From Thermomonospora catenispora (lineage in GTDB: Bacteria; Actinomycetota; Actinomycetes; Streptosporangiales; Streptosporangiaceae): DNA of 64,000 bases. How positions within the stretch are numbered: the first letter of the stretch is position 1; the number at the start of each line of letters is the position of its first letter. The notes below the pieces were generated by a model. The model did no database searches, was not told where the DNA came from, and was given only the letters and a program-made list of their open reading frames with translations. Below, piece after piece: positions 44,319 to 60,500 of this stretch. The position numbers and the translations under genes were made by a program. The stretch spans positions 1-64,000 of the forward strand of contig NZ_RRYT01000009.1 in the NCBI RefSeq assembly GCF_006363815.1, given 5' to 3'.

Positions 44319-44927
44319 ATGCCCACCCGTTCCCCGGCCCGCCCGATCACGCCCGGCGCCGTCGTGCCGGCCCGCGAGCTCGTCGCCGTCGACGGCGAGC
44401 GGGTCCCCGTGCCCGACCCGGACGGCCCGGTCCATCTGCAGTTCCGCCGGTTCGCCGGCTGCCCGGTCTGCAGCCTGCACCTGCGCCCGATCGCCCGGCG
44501 GCACGCGGAGATCGCCGCGGCGGGGGTGCGCGAGGCGGCGGTGTTCCACTCCTCCGCCGAGGAGCTGCGCCCCCATGTCGCCCACCTGCCGTTCCCGGTG
44601 ATCGCCGATCCGGACAAGCGGCTGTACGCGGAGTTCGGCGTGGAGTCGGCGAAGCGGTCGCTGCTGGACCCGCGCGCCTGGCGGCACATCGTCACCGCGG
44701 TGACGACGGCGCTGGTGCGGCGCGACCGGACTCCCCCGCCACGGCCGCGGGGCGGGCGGTTCGGACTGCCCGCCGACTTCCTGATCGGCCCGGACGGGCG
44801 GGTGCTGGCCGTCAAGTACGGCGAGCACGTCTACGACCAGTGGTCGGTGGAGGAGATCCTGCATCTGGCGCGGACCGCCGTCAGCGCGGGGACATCCCCC
44901 GCAGCACCAGCTCCAGACTCCGTCTGA
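44319..44927 (+). CDS. Peroxiredoxin-like protein (AhpC/TSA superfamily)
   Basis: A 202-residue thioredoxin-fold protein. The active-site segment is FAGCPVCSLHLRPI near residue 48, a CxxC variant of the peroxiredoxin centre; PFPVIADPDKRLYAEFGVE and FLIGPDGRVLAVKYGEHVYDQW are typical of the redoxin family. It probably reduces peroxides or protein disulfides in the cytosol. It is preceded by tandem operators and its last 47 bases overlap the convergent TetR gene. Confidence 0.83.
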   Translation: MPTRSPARPITPGAVVPARELVAVDGERVPVPDPDGPVHLQFRRFAGCPVCSLHLRPIARRHAEIAAAGVREAAVFHSSAEELRPHVAHLPFPVIADPDKRLYAEFGVESAKRSLLDPRAWRHIVTAVTTALVRRDRTPPPRPRGGRFGLPADFLIGPDGRVLAVKYGEHVYDQWSVEEILHLARTAVSAGTSPAAPAPDSV

Positions 44928-45495
44928 ACTCCTCGTCGGAGGCGATCGACCGGGCGTGCCGGGCGGTGTCGGCCAGCAGCGGGAACTCCTCCTCCGGCAG
45001 CGCCGCCAGCGCGGCGGTGCCGGGGCCGCTCAACGGGCCGAACCGCGTCAGCACCAGCGATCCGAACAGCTGGCCGAGCAGGGCGCGCAGGGCCACGGCC
45101 CGCCGCTCGCCGACGAACCCCGCCTCGGCCAGCACCTCCAGCAGCGCCTCGGCGAACCGCAGTGCGGCGGGCGCGGTGTGCCGGTGCATCAAGGCCAACG
45201 GCACCGCCGCCGGGTGCTCCCCGATCGCCGCGCGGGCCCGCTCGCACAGCGCCATGACGCGCTCCCGCCAGGAGGCCGCGGCGGGCGGCGTGACGTCCAC
45301 CGACGCCAGCATGTGGTCCACGACCAGGCTCTCCAGGTGCTCGCGGCCGTCGACGTAGCGGTAGAGCGCCATCGTGCTGACGCCGATCTCCTCGGCGACC
45401 GCCCGCATGGTCAGCCCGTCCTGGCCGTCCCGGTCGAGGACGGCCAGGGCGGCCGCGGCGATCCGGGCCTCGGTGAGCGACCGTGGACGTGGCAC
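44881..45495 (-). CDS. TetR-family repressor
   Basis: A 204-residue regulator. Residues 5-60 form the helix-turn-helix (LTEARIAAAALAVLDRDGQDGLTMRAVAEEIGVSTMALYRYVDGREHL); the remainder is a TetR C-terminal ligand domain with EFPLLADTARHARSIASDEEFRRSLELVLRG. Start at GTG 45493-45495 gives the usual short N-terminus. It is convergent with the peroxiredoxin-like gene and divergent from the MauA-like operon. GAGCGTAG, half of the operator near 44259, lies 8 bases upstream of its start, which suggests autoregulation. Confidence 0.87.
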   Translation of the reverse strand: MPRPRSLTEARIAAAALAVLDRDGQDGLTMRAVAEEIGVSTMALYRYVDGREHLESLVVDHMLASVDVTPPAAASWRERVMALCERARAAIGEHPAAVPLALMHRHTAPAALRFAEALLEVLAEAGFVGERRAVALRALLGQLFGSLVLTRFGPLSGPGTAALAALPEEEFPLLADTARHARSIASDEEFRRSLELVLRGMSPR

Positions 45496-45622
45496 GCCGG
45501 TAGAGCGTAGCGGGACGCGGCGTCCGGGGCCGTGTTCACCCAGAGACGAAGACCGCCCCTTCTCCCCACGACGACGGAACGAACATGTACGATCACCGTC
45601 TGTTCCTACGGAAAGGGGCGGC

Positions 45623-46369
45623 ATGACCGTGACGGGGGAAGGCGAGGCCATCCACCGGACACTGGACGGCACCGTGATCACGTTGGCCGGGGACCTGGAT
45701 CTGAGCGCCCCCTACTCGTCGGTGGTCCGGTTGGGCTTCATGCGGAGGCTGCACGAGCTGACCGCGGTGGATCGGGCGTTCGTCGCGGACTGGGCGCAGG
45801 GCCTCGGGGTGGACCGGCTGACCGAGGAGTACCGGATGCAGGGCGGCCGGCTGCGGATCGGGACGACCGTGGTCCGCGACGAGAGCCTGGCGGACTTCCC
45901 CGAACACCAACGGCGCGCGGGGACCGAGCGGGTGCTGGCGGCGGCGTGGGAGGGCCGGCGGCACGCGGTGTGCGCGCACTTCTATCACGCCCGCCCGGCC
46001 GACGCGATCCGGCTGTTCGCGGCGCTGCAGATCACCGAGCATCCGGACGGCGCCGCACTGACCCCCAGGACCCGGCACGGCGCGGTGATCGCCGAGACCG
46101 CCTCGCTGGTCAAGGACGTCCCGGGGATCGGCCTGCTGGAGATCAGCCCGCTGAACCGGGAGACGGCGCGCCGGCTGCCCGCCCACCGCGGCACCCGGCT
46201 GCGCACCGGGGAGCTGTACCGCGACACCCACGAGGACGGCGGCATCTACTTCGTGATGACCACCCCCACCGCGGTGGTGACCGTGCTGCCCGACGCGGAG
46301 GAGGCGCCGCAGGCCCCCACCCTGCTGGACCGGCTGACGGTGTCCGCCGCCCTGAAGGAGACGCCGTGA
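45623..46369 (+). CDS. Unknown cytosolic protein, first gene of the MauA-like operon
   Basis: A 248-residue protein without signal peptide or membrane helix. I do not recognise a family. It has a beta-rich opening (IHRTLDGTVITLAGDLDLSAPYSSVVRLGFMRRLHEL), a central part with two His and one Cys near HAVCAHFYHARPAD, and a C-terminal stretch ending GGIYFVMTTPTAVVTVLP. It is not a beta-propeller, so it does not replace the missing MADH heavy chain. GAAAGGGGC precedes the ATG. Its TGA overlaps the start of the MauE-like gene (GTGA), which ties its function to the operon. Confidence 0.7.
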   Translation: MTVTGEGEAIHRTLDGTVITLAGDLDLSAPYSSVVRLGFMRRLHELTAVDRAFVADWAQGLGVDRLTEEYRMQGGRLRIGTTVVRDESLADFPEHQRRAGTERVLAAAWEGRRHAVCAHFYHARPADAIRLFAALQITEHPDGAALTPRTRHGAVIAETASLVKDVPGIGLLEISPLNRETARRLPAHRGTRLRTGELYRDTHEDGGIYFVMTTPTAVVTVLPDAEEAPQAPTLLDRLTVSAALKETP

Positions 46370-46944
46370 TCGCGGCGCTCACGGCGGTGGCGGCGTGCAC
46401 GGTGACGGGCGTGCTGCTGCTGGGATTCCTCGAGCATCTGCGCGCCCCGCACGCCCTGCCCCGGGCGCTGGCCGGGCACGGCACGGTGCCGCTCCCCCTG
46501 GTGCGTCCGCTGGCGGCGCTCGTGGTGGCGGCGGAGGGCCTGCTGGCGGCGGCGCTGACGAGCGCCGTGGCGACGGGCGCGGACCGATTGCCGGAGACGC
46601 TGGTCGCGGCGGGGGTGCTGCTGGCGGTGTACGCGACCTACGCGCACCGGCTGCTGCGGAACGCGCGGAGCAGGGCGGTGCCGTGCGGCTGCTCGGGGGC
46701 CGACACCGCCGTGAGCGGCTGGGTGGTGCTGCGGGCGGGCGCGCCGTCGGCGCTGGCGCTGGCCGCGGCGCCGGCCGCGGCGGCGATCGCGCTCCCCGCC
46801 GCGCCGTCCGTCGAGTTCGTCCAGGCGGCGCTGGCCGGAGCCGTGTTCGCGGTGCTGCTGTGGGCGCTGCCGGAGGCGATGGAGCGTCCGGACGCCCGGG
46901 AGCGAGGAAGCCGATGGGCCCACGGGGAGCACGGGAGGGCGTGA
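46366..46944 (+). CDS. mauE: MauE-like redox-associated membrane protein
   Basis: A 192-residue protein with about five membrane helices and the MauE/DoxX pattern: GFLEHLRAPHALPRAL, a helix with EGLLAAAL, then AVYATYAHRLLRNARSRAVPCGCSGADTAVSGWVVLRAG. The CGC in VPCGCSG matches the conserved cysteine pair of MauE. In methylamine utilisation clusters MauE helps fold the disulfide-rich light chain together with MauD. GTG start overlaps the previous stop. Confidence 0.82.
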   Translation: MIAALTAVAACTVTGVLLLGFLEHLRAPHALPRALAGHGTVPLPLVRPLAALVVAAEGLLAAALTSAVATGADRLPETLVAAGVLLAVYATYAHRLLRNARSRAVPCGCSGADTAVSGWVVLRAGAPSALALAAAPAAAAIALPAAPSVEFVQAALAGAVFAVLLWALPEAMERPDARERGSRWAHGEHGRA

Positions 46945-47465
46945 TGGATTTCCAGACCACCATCGTGTTACTGACCTGGGCGGCGATCGCCTTGCTTGCG
47001 TTCGTGGTGGCCGGCCTGGTGCGGCGGGTGCACCTGCTGGCCGGCGGAGGCCGCCCGGCCGATCCGGGACCGGCCGTGGGAGCGCCGGCCCCGCACTTCG
47101 CGCGGCTGGCGCCGGACCCGGCGGCCGAGCGGACCCTGTTGCTGTTCCTGGACGCCGACTGCGGGGCGTGTCCGCGGGTGCTGGCGGAGCTGCGGGCGAT
47201 CCGCGCCGAGCGGGGCCGGCCGCTGCCGGTCGCCGCGCTCTATGCGGGCCGCGCCCCTCGGGAGCCGGCCGAGGACGTCGCGGTGCACGCCGAGGAGGCC
47301 TCGTTGTTCGAGGAGTACCGGATCCCCGCGGTGCCGTTCGCGGTGCTGGTCGACCGGTCCGGACGGGTCCGCGCCGCCCGGCCGGTGGGCTCGCCCGAGG
47401 CGCTGCGGGAGCTGCTCGCCGAGACCGGCGAGGGCCGGGCGACGGTGCCGGGGAGGTCGTCGTGA
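46944..47465 (+). CDS. mauD: MauD-like membrane-anchored thioredoxin
   Basis: A 173-residue protein with an N-terminal membrane anchor (TIVLLTWAAIALLAFVVAGLV) and an extracytoplasmic thioredoxin domain: PAPHFARLAP, LLLFLDADCGACPRVLAEL (active-site CGAC), and EEYRIPAVPFAVLVDRSGRVRAARPVG (cis-Pro in VPF). MauD proteins act on the disulfides of the methylamine dehydrogenase light chain. It overlaps the MauE-like gene by 1 base and the exported-protein gene by 4. Confidence 0.85.
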   Translation: MDFQTTIVLLTWAAIALLAFVVAGLVRRVHLLAGGGRPADPGPAVGAPAPHFARLAPDPAAERTLLLFLDADCGACPRVLAELRAIRAERGRPLPVAALYAGRAPREPAEDVAVHAEEASLFEEYRIPAVPFAVLVDRSGRVRAARPVGSPEALRELLAETGEGRATVPGRSS

Positions 47466-48022
47466 CCGAACGGGCCGAGAGGCGGATCCGGGTGGAGGAC
47501 GTCGTCCCGCTGTACGGGCCGGTGCCGCCGGGGACCCCGCGCGCCCGCCGGCGGATCCCGCGGACCGGACGGCGACCGAGCCGGCGCTCGCTGCTGAGCG
47601 GGATCGCCGCCGCCGGCTTCGGACTGGGCATGGCGGTGCTGGGGGTGTTCCCGGCCGCCCGCGAGGTCCCGGCCGATGAGTTCGACGAGTACTACGAGAT
47701 CAAGCCGCTGCCCTGCCCGTCGTACGCCGCCGACCACGACTGCTCGCCGGGCTGCGGCCCGAGCCGGGTCTGCGCCTCCTGCTGCCGCACCGAGGGCAAG
47801 CGGCGCGGCTACCACCATTCGAGCGTGTCCAAGCCGAACCACAAGCTGCGGCCCAACGAGTGCTACGGCGGATGGGCCGACGGGTGGCTGTGGAAGTTCA
47901 AGGGCGAGTGCGGCCCCTGCGCCGAGTACCGGACGTACCGCTGCCACGACGGCTGGCGGCGCAACGGGCCGAAACGGCCGTATTACCGGACCGTCTGCCG
48001 TTGGACGGTGGAATGCCAGTGA
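47462..48022 (+). CDS. Tat-exported 12-cysteine protein, methylamine dehydrogenase light-chain-like
   Basis: A 186-residue protein. A twin-arginine signal (PSRRSLLSG and a hydrophobic stretch, residues 36-62) targets it folded through Tat. The mature part (about 120 residues) has exactly 12 cysteines, the number that forms six disulfides in the MauA light chain, in clusters CPSYAADHDCSPGC, RVCASCC, ECGPCAEY and CRWTVEC, and five tryptophans (GGW, DGWLW, HDGW, CRW), candidates for a tryptophan tryptophylquinone. The MauE/MauD neighbours support the assignment. There is no MauB heavy chain or MauG in this window. The partner and substrate are unknown. Confidence 0.75.
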   Translation: MTERAERRIRVEDVVPLYGPVPPGTPRARRRIPRTGRRPSRRSLLSGIAAAGFGLGMAVLGVFPAAREVPADEFDEYYEIKPLPCPSYAADHDCSPGCGPSRVCASCCRTEGKRRGYHHSSVSKPNHKLRPNECYGGWADGWLWKFKGECGPCAEYRTYRCHDGWRRNGPKRPYYRTVCRWTVECQ

Positions 48023-48762
48023 CCTCCGCGACCGCCGGGGCGGTGCGGCGGGCGATCACCGACCCGCTGGTCCCCGTCGTGCTGGTGGCGATGGCCGCGG
48101 TGGCGGCGGCCGCTCGCGACAGCATGGTGCTGGGCTGGGCGACGGTGGGCGCGCTCGCCGGGTACTCGTTGTCCGGGTCGGTTTGAACGCACAACAGCAA
48201 CGCCGTGCTGTTCTCGCCAGGTTGGCGAGCCGCGTCGGGGCAGGGTTCGATCCTCGCCTTCTTCACCGCGGGGCTGCTCCTCGGGGGCGCCCTGTCGGGT
48301 CTGGCGGTGTGGCTGCTGTCGGGGCTGTCGGAGCCGATCCCCCAGGGCGGCCGGGCCGCCGCCGTCGCCGCGGTCGCGGCGACGGGGGTGCTGCGCGAGT
48401 TCGGCGTGCTGCGGTTGTCGCTGCCGCAGAACGCCCGGCAGATCCCGCTGGAGGTGCTGCAGCGGCGTCCGCGGCTGGGCCCGATGCAGTTCGGGTTCGA
48501 GCTGGGCACCGGGGTGCGCACGTACGTGACGTCGTCGGCCCCGTACATGGCGGCGCTGGCGCTGCTGCTGAGCCATCCGGCCCTGGCGGCGGCGACGGCG
48601 GCCGGGCTGGGGTTCGGGCTGGGCCGGGCGCTGACGGCGGCGACCGTGCTGTGGAGCCGTGATCCGGAGTGGAACGCCCGCGCCGCCGCCCGCATGCCGC
48701 TGCTGACCAGGCTCGCCGTCACGGCGCTCGCCGCGGCCCTGCTGACGGCGGCGGTCGGGTAG
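48013..48762 (+). pseudogene. Membrane protein interrupted by in-frame TGA (or two coupled ORFs)
   Basis: An open frame of 250 codons is split by a single TGA at 48184-48186. The first part (57 aa, ATG 48013, overlapping the previous gene by 10 bases) has one or two helices ending in LAGYSLSGSV; the second, from GTG 48205 or earlier, has FFTAGLLLGGALSGLAVWLL and a conserved-looking FGFELGTGVRTYVTSSAPYMAALALLL. Both halves read in the same frame as one multi-pass membrane protein at the end of the MauA-like operon. The join uses rare codons (CCA, GGT, CGA) and two abutting hairpins, so it may be a small insertion. If the break is recoded, or the second half is restarted at GTG 48205, the gene may still be functional. 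Confidence 0.6.
48193..48229 (+). other. Two back-to-back perfect hairpins directly after the TGA
   Basis: AACAGCA/TGCTGTT (7-bp stem, 6-base loop, 48193-48212) and CTCGCCA/TGGCGAG (7-bp stem, 3-base loop, 48213-48229) touch without any spacer. They begin 6 bases after the TGA, and the GTG restart (48205) lies at the end of the first loop. No U-run follows. Possible roles are insertion element, recoding signal or attenuator. Confidence 0.6.
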
Positions 48763-59951: not shown

Positions 59952-60500
59952 ATGATCCTTGACCAGGCAGACACCGTCACCGACACGCCGGCCCGGGAAA
60001 GGGACCGGCACTGGTGGCTGTCCGCACTGGACCAATCCCCCCGGCCGCCCGGCTACTGGCCGGCGCCGGCCTCCTCCAGCCCGCGCACCGCGCGGATCGT
60101 GCTGCGCACCGAGGCCGGCTCTCCTCGGGCCGCCCGCCGGTTCACCGCCCGCACGCTGGACGAATGGGGGCTGACCGAGCCGGCCGACGATGTGACCATG
60201 GTCGTCTCGGAGCTGGTCACCAACGCGGTGCGCTACGGCCTGGACGGCCTGCCGCCGGCCGCTCAGCTGTGCCCGGTGCAGCTGGCCCTGTTCTGTCATC
60301 CGCGCCGGCTGGTCGTGGTGGTCACCGATCCCAGCGACCACGTTCCGCGGATCGCCGCGCTCGACGCCGACCGGCACGCCGAGAACGGCCGCGGCCTGCG
60401 AGTGGTCGAGGCCCTGTCGGACGCCTGGGGATGGGCCCCTCTCACCAGCGGCGGCAAGGCGGTCTGGGCCGCCTTCGAGCTGCGCCGCCGAACCCCCTGA
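59952..60500 (+). CDS. HATPase-domain anti-sigma-like regulatory kinase
   Basis: A 182-residue single-domain GHKL ATPase. The N box is VVSELVTNAVRYG, the G1 box VTDPSDHVPRIAALD (degenerate) with ENGRGLRVVEALSDAWGW as the G2-like loop. Such proteins act as serine kinases or anti-sigma factors in actinomycete developmental switches and often pair with DUF397/XRE. N-terminal 60 residues are Pro/Arg-rich. Confidence 0.88.
   Translation: MILDQADTVTDTPARERDRHWWLSALDQSPRPPGYWPAPASSSPRTARIVLRTEAGSPRAARRFTARTLDEWGLTEPADDVTMVVSELVTNAVRYGLDGLPPAAQLCPVQLALFCHPRRLVVVVTDPSDHVPRIAALDADRHAENGRGLRVVEALSDAWGWAPLTSGGKAVWAAFELRRRTP

Follow-up and report, generated by a model that had tools for sequence, protein, structure and literature searches.

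Organisation and distribution of the operon

The stretch of DNA analysed here (the window) comprises the first 64,000 nucleotides of contig NZ_RRYT01000009.1 of Thermomonospora catenispora, and it carries, at 45623–48762 on the + strand, an operon of five genes (g1–g5), the last of which contains an in-frame TGA and very probably encodes, judging from the sequence, a selenocysteine (Sec) form of the membrane protein MauF. The genes form one overlapping chain, confirmed from the sequence, with a 4-nt overlap at three of the four junctions and a 1-nt overlap at the other. g1 (45623–46369, +) encodes a presumably cytosolic protein of 248 aa (no signal by eye), which had been described as of unknown type and indeed has no match in Pfam or NCBIfam up to E 1. 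g2 (46366–46944, +) encodes a MauE-family membrane protein with a CGC motif (PF07291, 48.8 bits against a cut-off of 27, E 1.1e-12), whose CxC is kept in 18 of the 18 loci read, L026 and L042 being one strain. g3 (46944–47465, +) encodes a MauD-like, membrane-anchored thioredoxin-like protein with a CGAC motif; it scores 28.4 bits against TIGR02661 (MauD), below the equivalog cut-off of 188.6, and its CxxC is kept in 19 of the 19 loci read. g4 (47462–48022, +) encodes a 12-Cys protein that is probably exported by twin-arginine translocation (Tat) and is the presumed client of the system; its twin-arginine leader is seen by eye, and NCBIfam TAT_signal_seq gives 10.9 bits, under the cut-off of 16.7. 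Finally, g5 (48019–48762, +) encodes a MauF-like membrane protein in which a UGA codon is the putative Sec.

Ten Cys of g4 occur in all 18 rows of its alignment; the remaining two are jointly present in 11 and jointly absent in 7, which would be expected of one disulfide. No family was assigned to g4 in Pfam/NCBIfam searches, a DUF3040 match (E 0.2) being noise; placement in an unrelated characterised family, named in the first-pass annotation as a refuting outcome, was not obtained, and sequence searches of the PDB returned nothing meaningful. A check proposed there, following the gene neighbours of the 12-Cys protein, bears out the described chain of MauE-like, MauD-like and 12-Cys proteins. 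Among 200 genomes of the family, g4 matches were found in 23; 19 of these (own included) hold it at full length, and the other four hold short, weak matches (E 3e-5 to 9e-4). At 18 other loci g1–g5 stand in the same order, where L034, starting at a contig end inside the operon, shows g3–g5, and g1 is the first gene in 17 of the 18, i.e., in all that reach that far. Since full-length g4 recurs in 19 of 200 genomes with the same gene order at 18 other loci, the operon is not a chance arrangement. A scan of the genome_contigs collection gave one locus only, and the query P0005 matched nothing among plasmids or viral contigs.

The in-frame UGA of g5

An open reading frame (ORF) finder places g5 at 48205–48762; the frame is actually open and conserved from 48013 or 48019 except for one TGA at 48184–48186 (+), which is residue 58 counted from 48013 and residue 56 counted from 48019, and which is read here as putative Sec. 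The GTG at 48019 overlaps the g4 stop as GTGA. The fifth gene had been rightly recognised as encoding a membrane protein; its extent has to be corrected, and the in-frame TGA had gone unreported. The TGA stands at the same codon in the window and in every one of the 19 loci looked at (from 18 genomes besides the own one, L026 and L042 being the same strain), inside (S/A)LSGSV*T(H/R/L)NS, in which the asterisk is the TGA, and all 19 operon genomes examined, own included, keep it. The identity of the g5 protein is 0.75 before the TGA and 0.76 after it (40 columns), i.e., equal, so that the conserved in-frame UGA is flanked by conserved protein, as looked for in a selenoprotein.

The same codon was followed into more distant genomes. 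A search of the 200 family genomes with the g5 profile matched 47, of which 46 were kept, with 49 genes each containing one TGA (G085 was dropped, as it holds a 31-residue piece without the TGA). Across the phylum, 10 of 396 genomes matched, own included, and the TGA is at this place in 8 of 8 readable distant loci, the ninth, L071, being masked. A search of another class matched 31 of 148 genomes, with 34 matches in all, 30 of which were made into loci; 21 of these have the TGA (two of which are already counted as L070 and L076) and nine have a Cys codon (TGC/TGT). DUF543 matches of g5 are noise.

Two RNA hairpins lie after the UGA. The proximal hairpin H1 (48193–48212, +) pairs positions 12–27 to 16–23 counted from the UGA; the distal hairpin H2 (48213–48229, +) pairs positions 30–46 to 36–40, is a candidate bacterial selenocysteine insertion sequence (SECIS), and has the loop GGU at 48220–48222, found in 19 of 19 members of the window clade. 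It has been reported, in the available part of PMC1088965, that a stem-loop just after the UGA with a small G-containing loop is the criterion for such an element, and this arrangement is found here, with four poor rows. In 40 sequences (the 46 TGA rows minus six near copies), the pairs of H1 and H2 form in 94.0% of cells, compared with 70.9% for shuffled sequences and no more than 51.1% after sliding; changes on both sides occur in 10 of the 12 pairs, RNAalifold finds the same two hairpins unaided (11 of 12 pairs), and the register after the TGA is kept in distant lineages. The Cys forms (8 of 9 tested) are 61.5% paired against 58.0% in shuffles. The 12-pair rule is fitted by one of the 1,029 TGA trinucleotides of the window, namely that at 48184, and over the window and 18 loci by 19 of 6,985, exactly the 19 g5 TGAs; since the rule was set after viewing the window and the distant class, this last result tests specificity and is not blind. 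In a second subfamily of 10 loci, not used in setting the rule, all seven pairs of H2 form in 10 of 10 and H1 is complete in 3 of 10, for which reason H2 is the likely SECIS. The RNA model R1 also gives 20.2 bits at 60078–60127 (−) of the window, with no TGA at its start, probably by chance.

The machinery for Sec is present in the genome, which has tRNA-Sec and, over cut-offs and on the same contig, selA, selB and selD. Strong tRNA-Sec (63 bits or more) occurs in 121 of the 200 family genomes overall and in 46 of 46 with MauF-TGA (p 1e-12, with kinship ignored); tRNA-Sec is no more than 12 kb away from 17 of the 49 MauF-TGA genes, with a crude expectation of 0.16, and the same-genus genome G140 has neither the MauF-TGA operon nor tRNA-Sec. 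In the other class, strong tRNA-Sec is found in 18 of 19 TGA carriers versus 4 of 9 Cys carriers (Fisher 0.007, kinship ignored). Among distant carriers it is strong in 7 of 9, the two without being G356 and G466 (the masked one). SelB above E 1e-60 is listed in 18 of 19 operon carriers, the exception being G184 (87% complete); SelB counts over the 200 genomes are weak and do not serve as the main test, because EF-Tu also scores near 209 bits. In the 10 second-subfamily loci fetched, selA and selB adjoin the operon in six (L130, L131, L132, L133, L134, and L137); MauD was found in nine, MauE in five, weak g1-like stretches (8–24 bits) near MauF-TGA in six, and, by a simple filter, a Tat-like ORF with at least 8 Cys in three (L130, L134, and L137). 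More than one strong tRNA-Sec gene was seen in G100 (three), G090, G135, G009, G033, and others.

The Cys counterpart of the UGA is found in MauF itself. MauF of Paracoccus, Methylobacterium, and Indioceanicola contains STWSPCGYSS, and the Cys forms of the other class carry (S/G)TWSPCG; BLASTP of MauF against distant g5 forms goes down to 2e-17. By hhalign, the mixed alignment A5 matches MauF at 99.4%, with the Cys of SPC falling on the UGA (SPC versus SPU), and the window clade alone (A1) matches it at 94.4% over the C-terminal two thirds. Homology thus extends over the membrane domain, with UGA in place of the Cys of the SPC motif, and Cys homologues at the UGA position are provided by 9 of 30 loci and by the SPC of MauF. 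When 27 of the 30 other-class loci (all but L126–L128) are placed on a tree, Sec and Cys forms separate once, and repeated switching between them was rejected for this class. g5 is very probably the Sec form of MauF, with Sec replacing the single conserved Cys. It can be seen from these computations that the UGA is conserved, that it has a Cys counterpart and is followed by conserved paired RNA, and that the gene is linked to the Sec machinery and belongs to an operon; the first four of these together make g5 very probably a new selenoprotein.

Proposed relay and competing explanations

The reading as a whole, in which g5 would be a MauF-type selenoprotein, weakly DsbD/CcdA-like, that acts with MauE and MauD in maturing the disulfides of a client, is considered likely. 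The UGA would be decoded by SelB and tRNA-Sec on the hairpin after it; MauE (CxC), MauD (CxxC), and MauF-Sec may form a membrane thiol/selenol relay, which, outside the cytoplasm, would form or isomerise the disulfides of the small Cys-rich protein of the neighbouring gene. Sec may serve as a fast one-residue exchange site, as suggested by the lack of a second conserved Cys in the alignment, and g1 might, as a guess, be a partner of the client in the cytosol. MauF is always preceded by the Cys-rich g4 in the window clade; at seven distant loci (L069–L071 and L073–L076), the neighbours of MauD, MauF, and a MauE-like gene include one for a Cys-rich protein, whose twin-arginine leader is visible in most, the MauE-like gene being recognised by profile in L074 and L076 and by eye elsewhere. 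As its alternative, the first-pass annotation had proposed that Mau folding proteins serve some other exported protein rich in disulfides, which fits these data; with a MauF relative as the fifth protein, the set of MauE, MauD-like, and MauF-like proteins is complete. The view that MauE serves the disulfides of the β-subunit of methylamine dehydrogenase (MADH) reportedly traces to van der Palen 1997. In the accessible text of PMC7794033, this role of MauE is given as speculation. A gene of unknown family with a PGWEG-like start motif was also seen after MauF in L069 (2275–2751), L071 (6048–6509), and L073 (8271–8780), and the same gene in L076 (7465–8229) starts with PTDWEG.

Several points weigh against this reading. 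H1 is not general, being incomplete in seven of the ten second-subfamily members; the 94.0% pairing and the 12-pair rule are not blind for the window clade, because the rule was set after viewing the window and the distant class; and the covariance model R1, drawn from the distant class only, missed the window element, and what it did find was the Cys form L106, through sequence. Taken by themselves, the hairpins of the window have only a moderate advantage in folding over shuffles (z −1.81, with 13 of 200 shuffles doing as well), and L069, L075, L126, and L127 pair poorly. The p value of the tRNA-Sec association takes no account of kinship between genomes; G356 and G663 have the TGA and no strong tRNA-Sec was found in them (drafts, 92 and 90% complete); and the Cys rows are not independent events, because Sec and Cys split once on the other-class tree. 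In addition, the link to the client rests on gene order, and g4 and the other Cys-rich neighbours may belong to different families.

An unlikely alternative to the relay is that MauF-Sec imports electrons in the manner of CcdA and passes them to MauD, which would then reduce envelope thiols in general, g4 being just one target or a regulator. The pairing of MauF with MauD resembles that of CcdA with ResA; in DsbD/CcdA, the active residue follows SP in the first helix, as in g5; and weak profile likeness to the DsbD/CcdA shuttles (PF13386, PF02683) exists, with a score of 21.8 bits (cut-off 24.9) and DsbD_2 matches in 4 of 11 members, the best at E 6.5e-5, all below cut-off. However, DsbD and CcdA use two membrane Cys, A5 has one invariant Cys/Sec column only, and the operon keeps its Cys-rich protein in all 18 window-clade loci. 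It is quite unlikely that the Cys-rich protein serves as precursor to a peptide natural product that is secreted, with MauE, MauD, and MauF as modifying enzymes, an explanation that is compatible with the Sec finding. In Streptomyces, decRiPPter families with MauE, one of them also with MauD, have precursors of at least 8 Cys and thus a similarly Cys-rich product, MauF and selenium not being mentioned in the available portion of that report (PMC7794033), but g4 extends over about 100 broadly conserved residues from its first Cys to its end.

The proposal of the first-pass annotation that this is a quinone-protein system with a new partner is not supported; a tryptophan tryptophylquinone (TTQ) or other quinone enzyme, in which g4 would be the light chain and g1 or g5 would replace the heavy chain and MauG, is very improbable. 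Mau clusters do contain MauE, MauD, and MauF, and two Trp (columns 171 and 173) are invariant in 18 of 18 g4 rows. However, MauG has no match in the own genome, where the control rang in 2 of 14 genomes, which upholds its reported absence; the reported absence of the heavy chain is less firm, as MauB has no match with a silent control, and the lack of a PF02975 light-chain match in the genome is weak for the same reason. No Pfam light-chain match was found in the 18 g4 members either, and g4 as a MauA relative was rejected: the mature g4 profile scores 16.7 against MADH light chains (with Thermomicrobium roseum), inside the Cys-fixed shuffles (maximum 23.3 of 30). Five distant Cys-rich clients match MauA at 94.6% by hhalign, a match confined to the Tat leader and the first Cys part; for the mature part of these clients the score is 24.5 when the T. 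roseum rows are added to MauA and 18.2 when they are not, against Cys-fixed shuffles of up to 19.2, which is suggestive only. In L076 (9262–10587), L070 (5322–6698), and L069 (2748–4718), a Cys-rich Tat domain with the FRYGQC motif is followed by a long C-terminal extension, and the mature part weakly resembles the MADH light chain. L080 (T. roseum plasmid NC_011961.1) has MADH-light-chain-like places near long repeat-like secreted proteins, and one of these places bears a light-chain annotation (TIGR02659 at 30.5 bits, far under the cut-off of 196.85).

Finally, it is scarcely credible that the TGA is a true stop and that translation starts afresh at a GTG or ATG close by, giving the second half as a separate polypeptide: the window clade has a GTG 7 codons past the TGA and TGAGGAGAGTCGATG in the other class resembles a ribosome site with ATG, but by eye the window clade shows no ribosome site ahead of its GTG, the Cys forms are one continuous frame, and the complete tRNA-Sec association and the paired RNA would be left unexplained.

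Relation to known systems and meaning

Upstream of the operon lie a redoxin-like gene with CPVC by eye (44319–44927, +) and a gene for a TetR-like regulator (44881–45681, −), and both precede the operon only in L024 and L026 of the 18 loci. AlphaFold models of g1 and g5 (window and L042 rows) have mean predicted local distance difference test (pLDDT) values of 39 and 43; they were set aside without being searched.

The closest known arrangement is the mau cluster of Paracoccus denitrificans (NC_008688.1), in which the same MauF, MauE, and MauD families surround a twin-arginine Cys-rich protein and SPC aligns with SPU; unlike that cluster, the operon described here has Sec for Cys, a different gene order, no MauB, MauG, or amicyanin gene, and a presumed client unlike MauA by profile. 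TsoB (NF045694), a rhodanese/DsbD fusion-like selenoprotein with UxxxxU and two Sec, is the nearest entry in Table 1 of a 2026 inventory of 119 selenoprotein families (PMC13188914), which lists no family like that of g5; it shares the DsbD-like region and Sec with g5 and differs, going by that table, in its two Sec and its rhodanese domain. The A5 members have no match to an NCBIfam TsoB model, and NCBIfam 20.0 offers them no fitting model, the five matches (best E 0.004) being of other kinds. Among the matches listed in full-text literature searches, whose scope left out most subscription papers, there was no paper on a Mau selenoprotein. Sec-MauF is very probably a previously unlisted selenoprotein family.

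A broader claim stands at even odds, namely that MauF-Sec, MauE, and MauD form a phylum-wide, selenium-dependent envelope pathway dedicated to the disulfides of exported Cys-rich proteins, which, encoded beside selA–selB and tRNA-Sec, would be a main reason why many actinobacteria keep the Sec machinery. With g5, the selenoproteins probably gain a family whose members are cut in two at the UGA by ordinary ORF calling, and the finding suggests a role for MauF, for which the literature at hand, consulted in part, gave no function, in one-thiol (or one-selenol) exchange during disulfide maturation. The cultured Thermomonospora echinospora DSM 43163 carries the operon with the TGA, so that both Sec and function are directly testable, and, if true, the reading would mean that Sec is used in the actinobacterial cell envelope.

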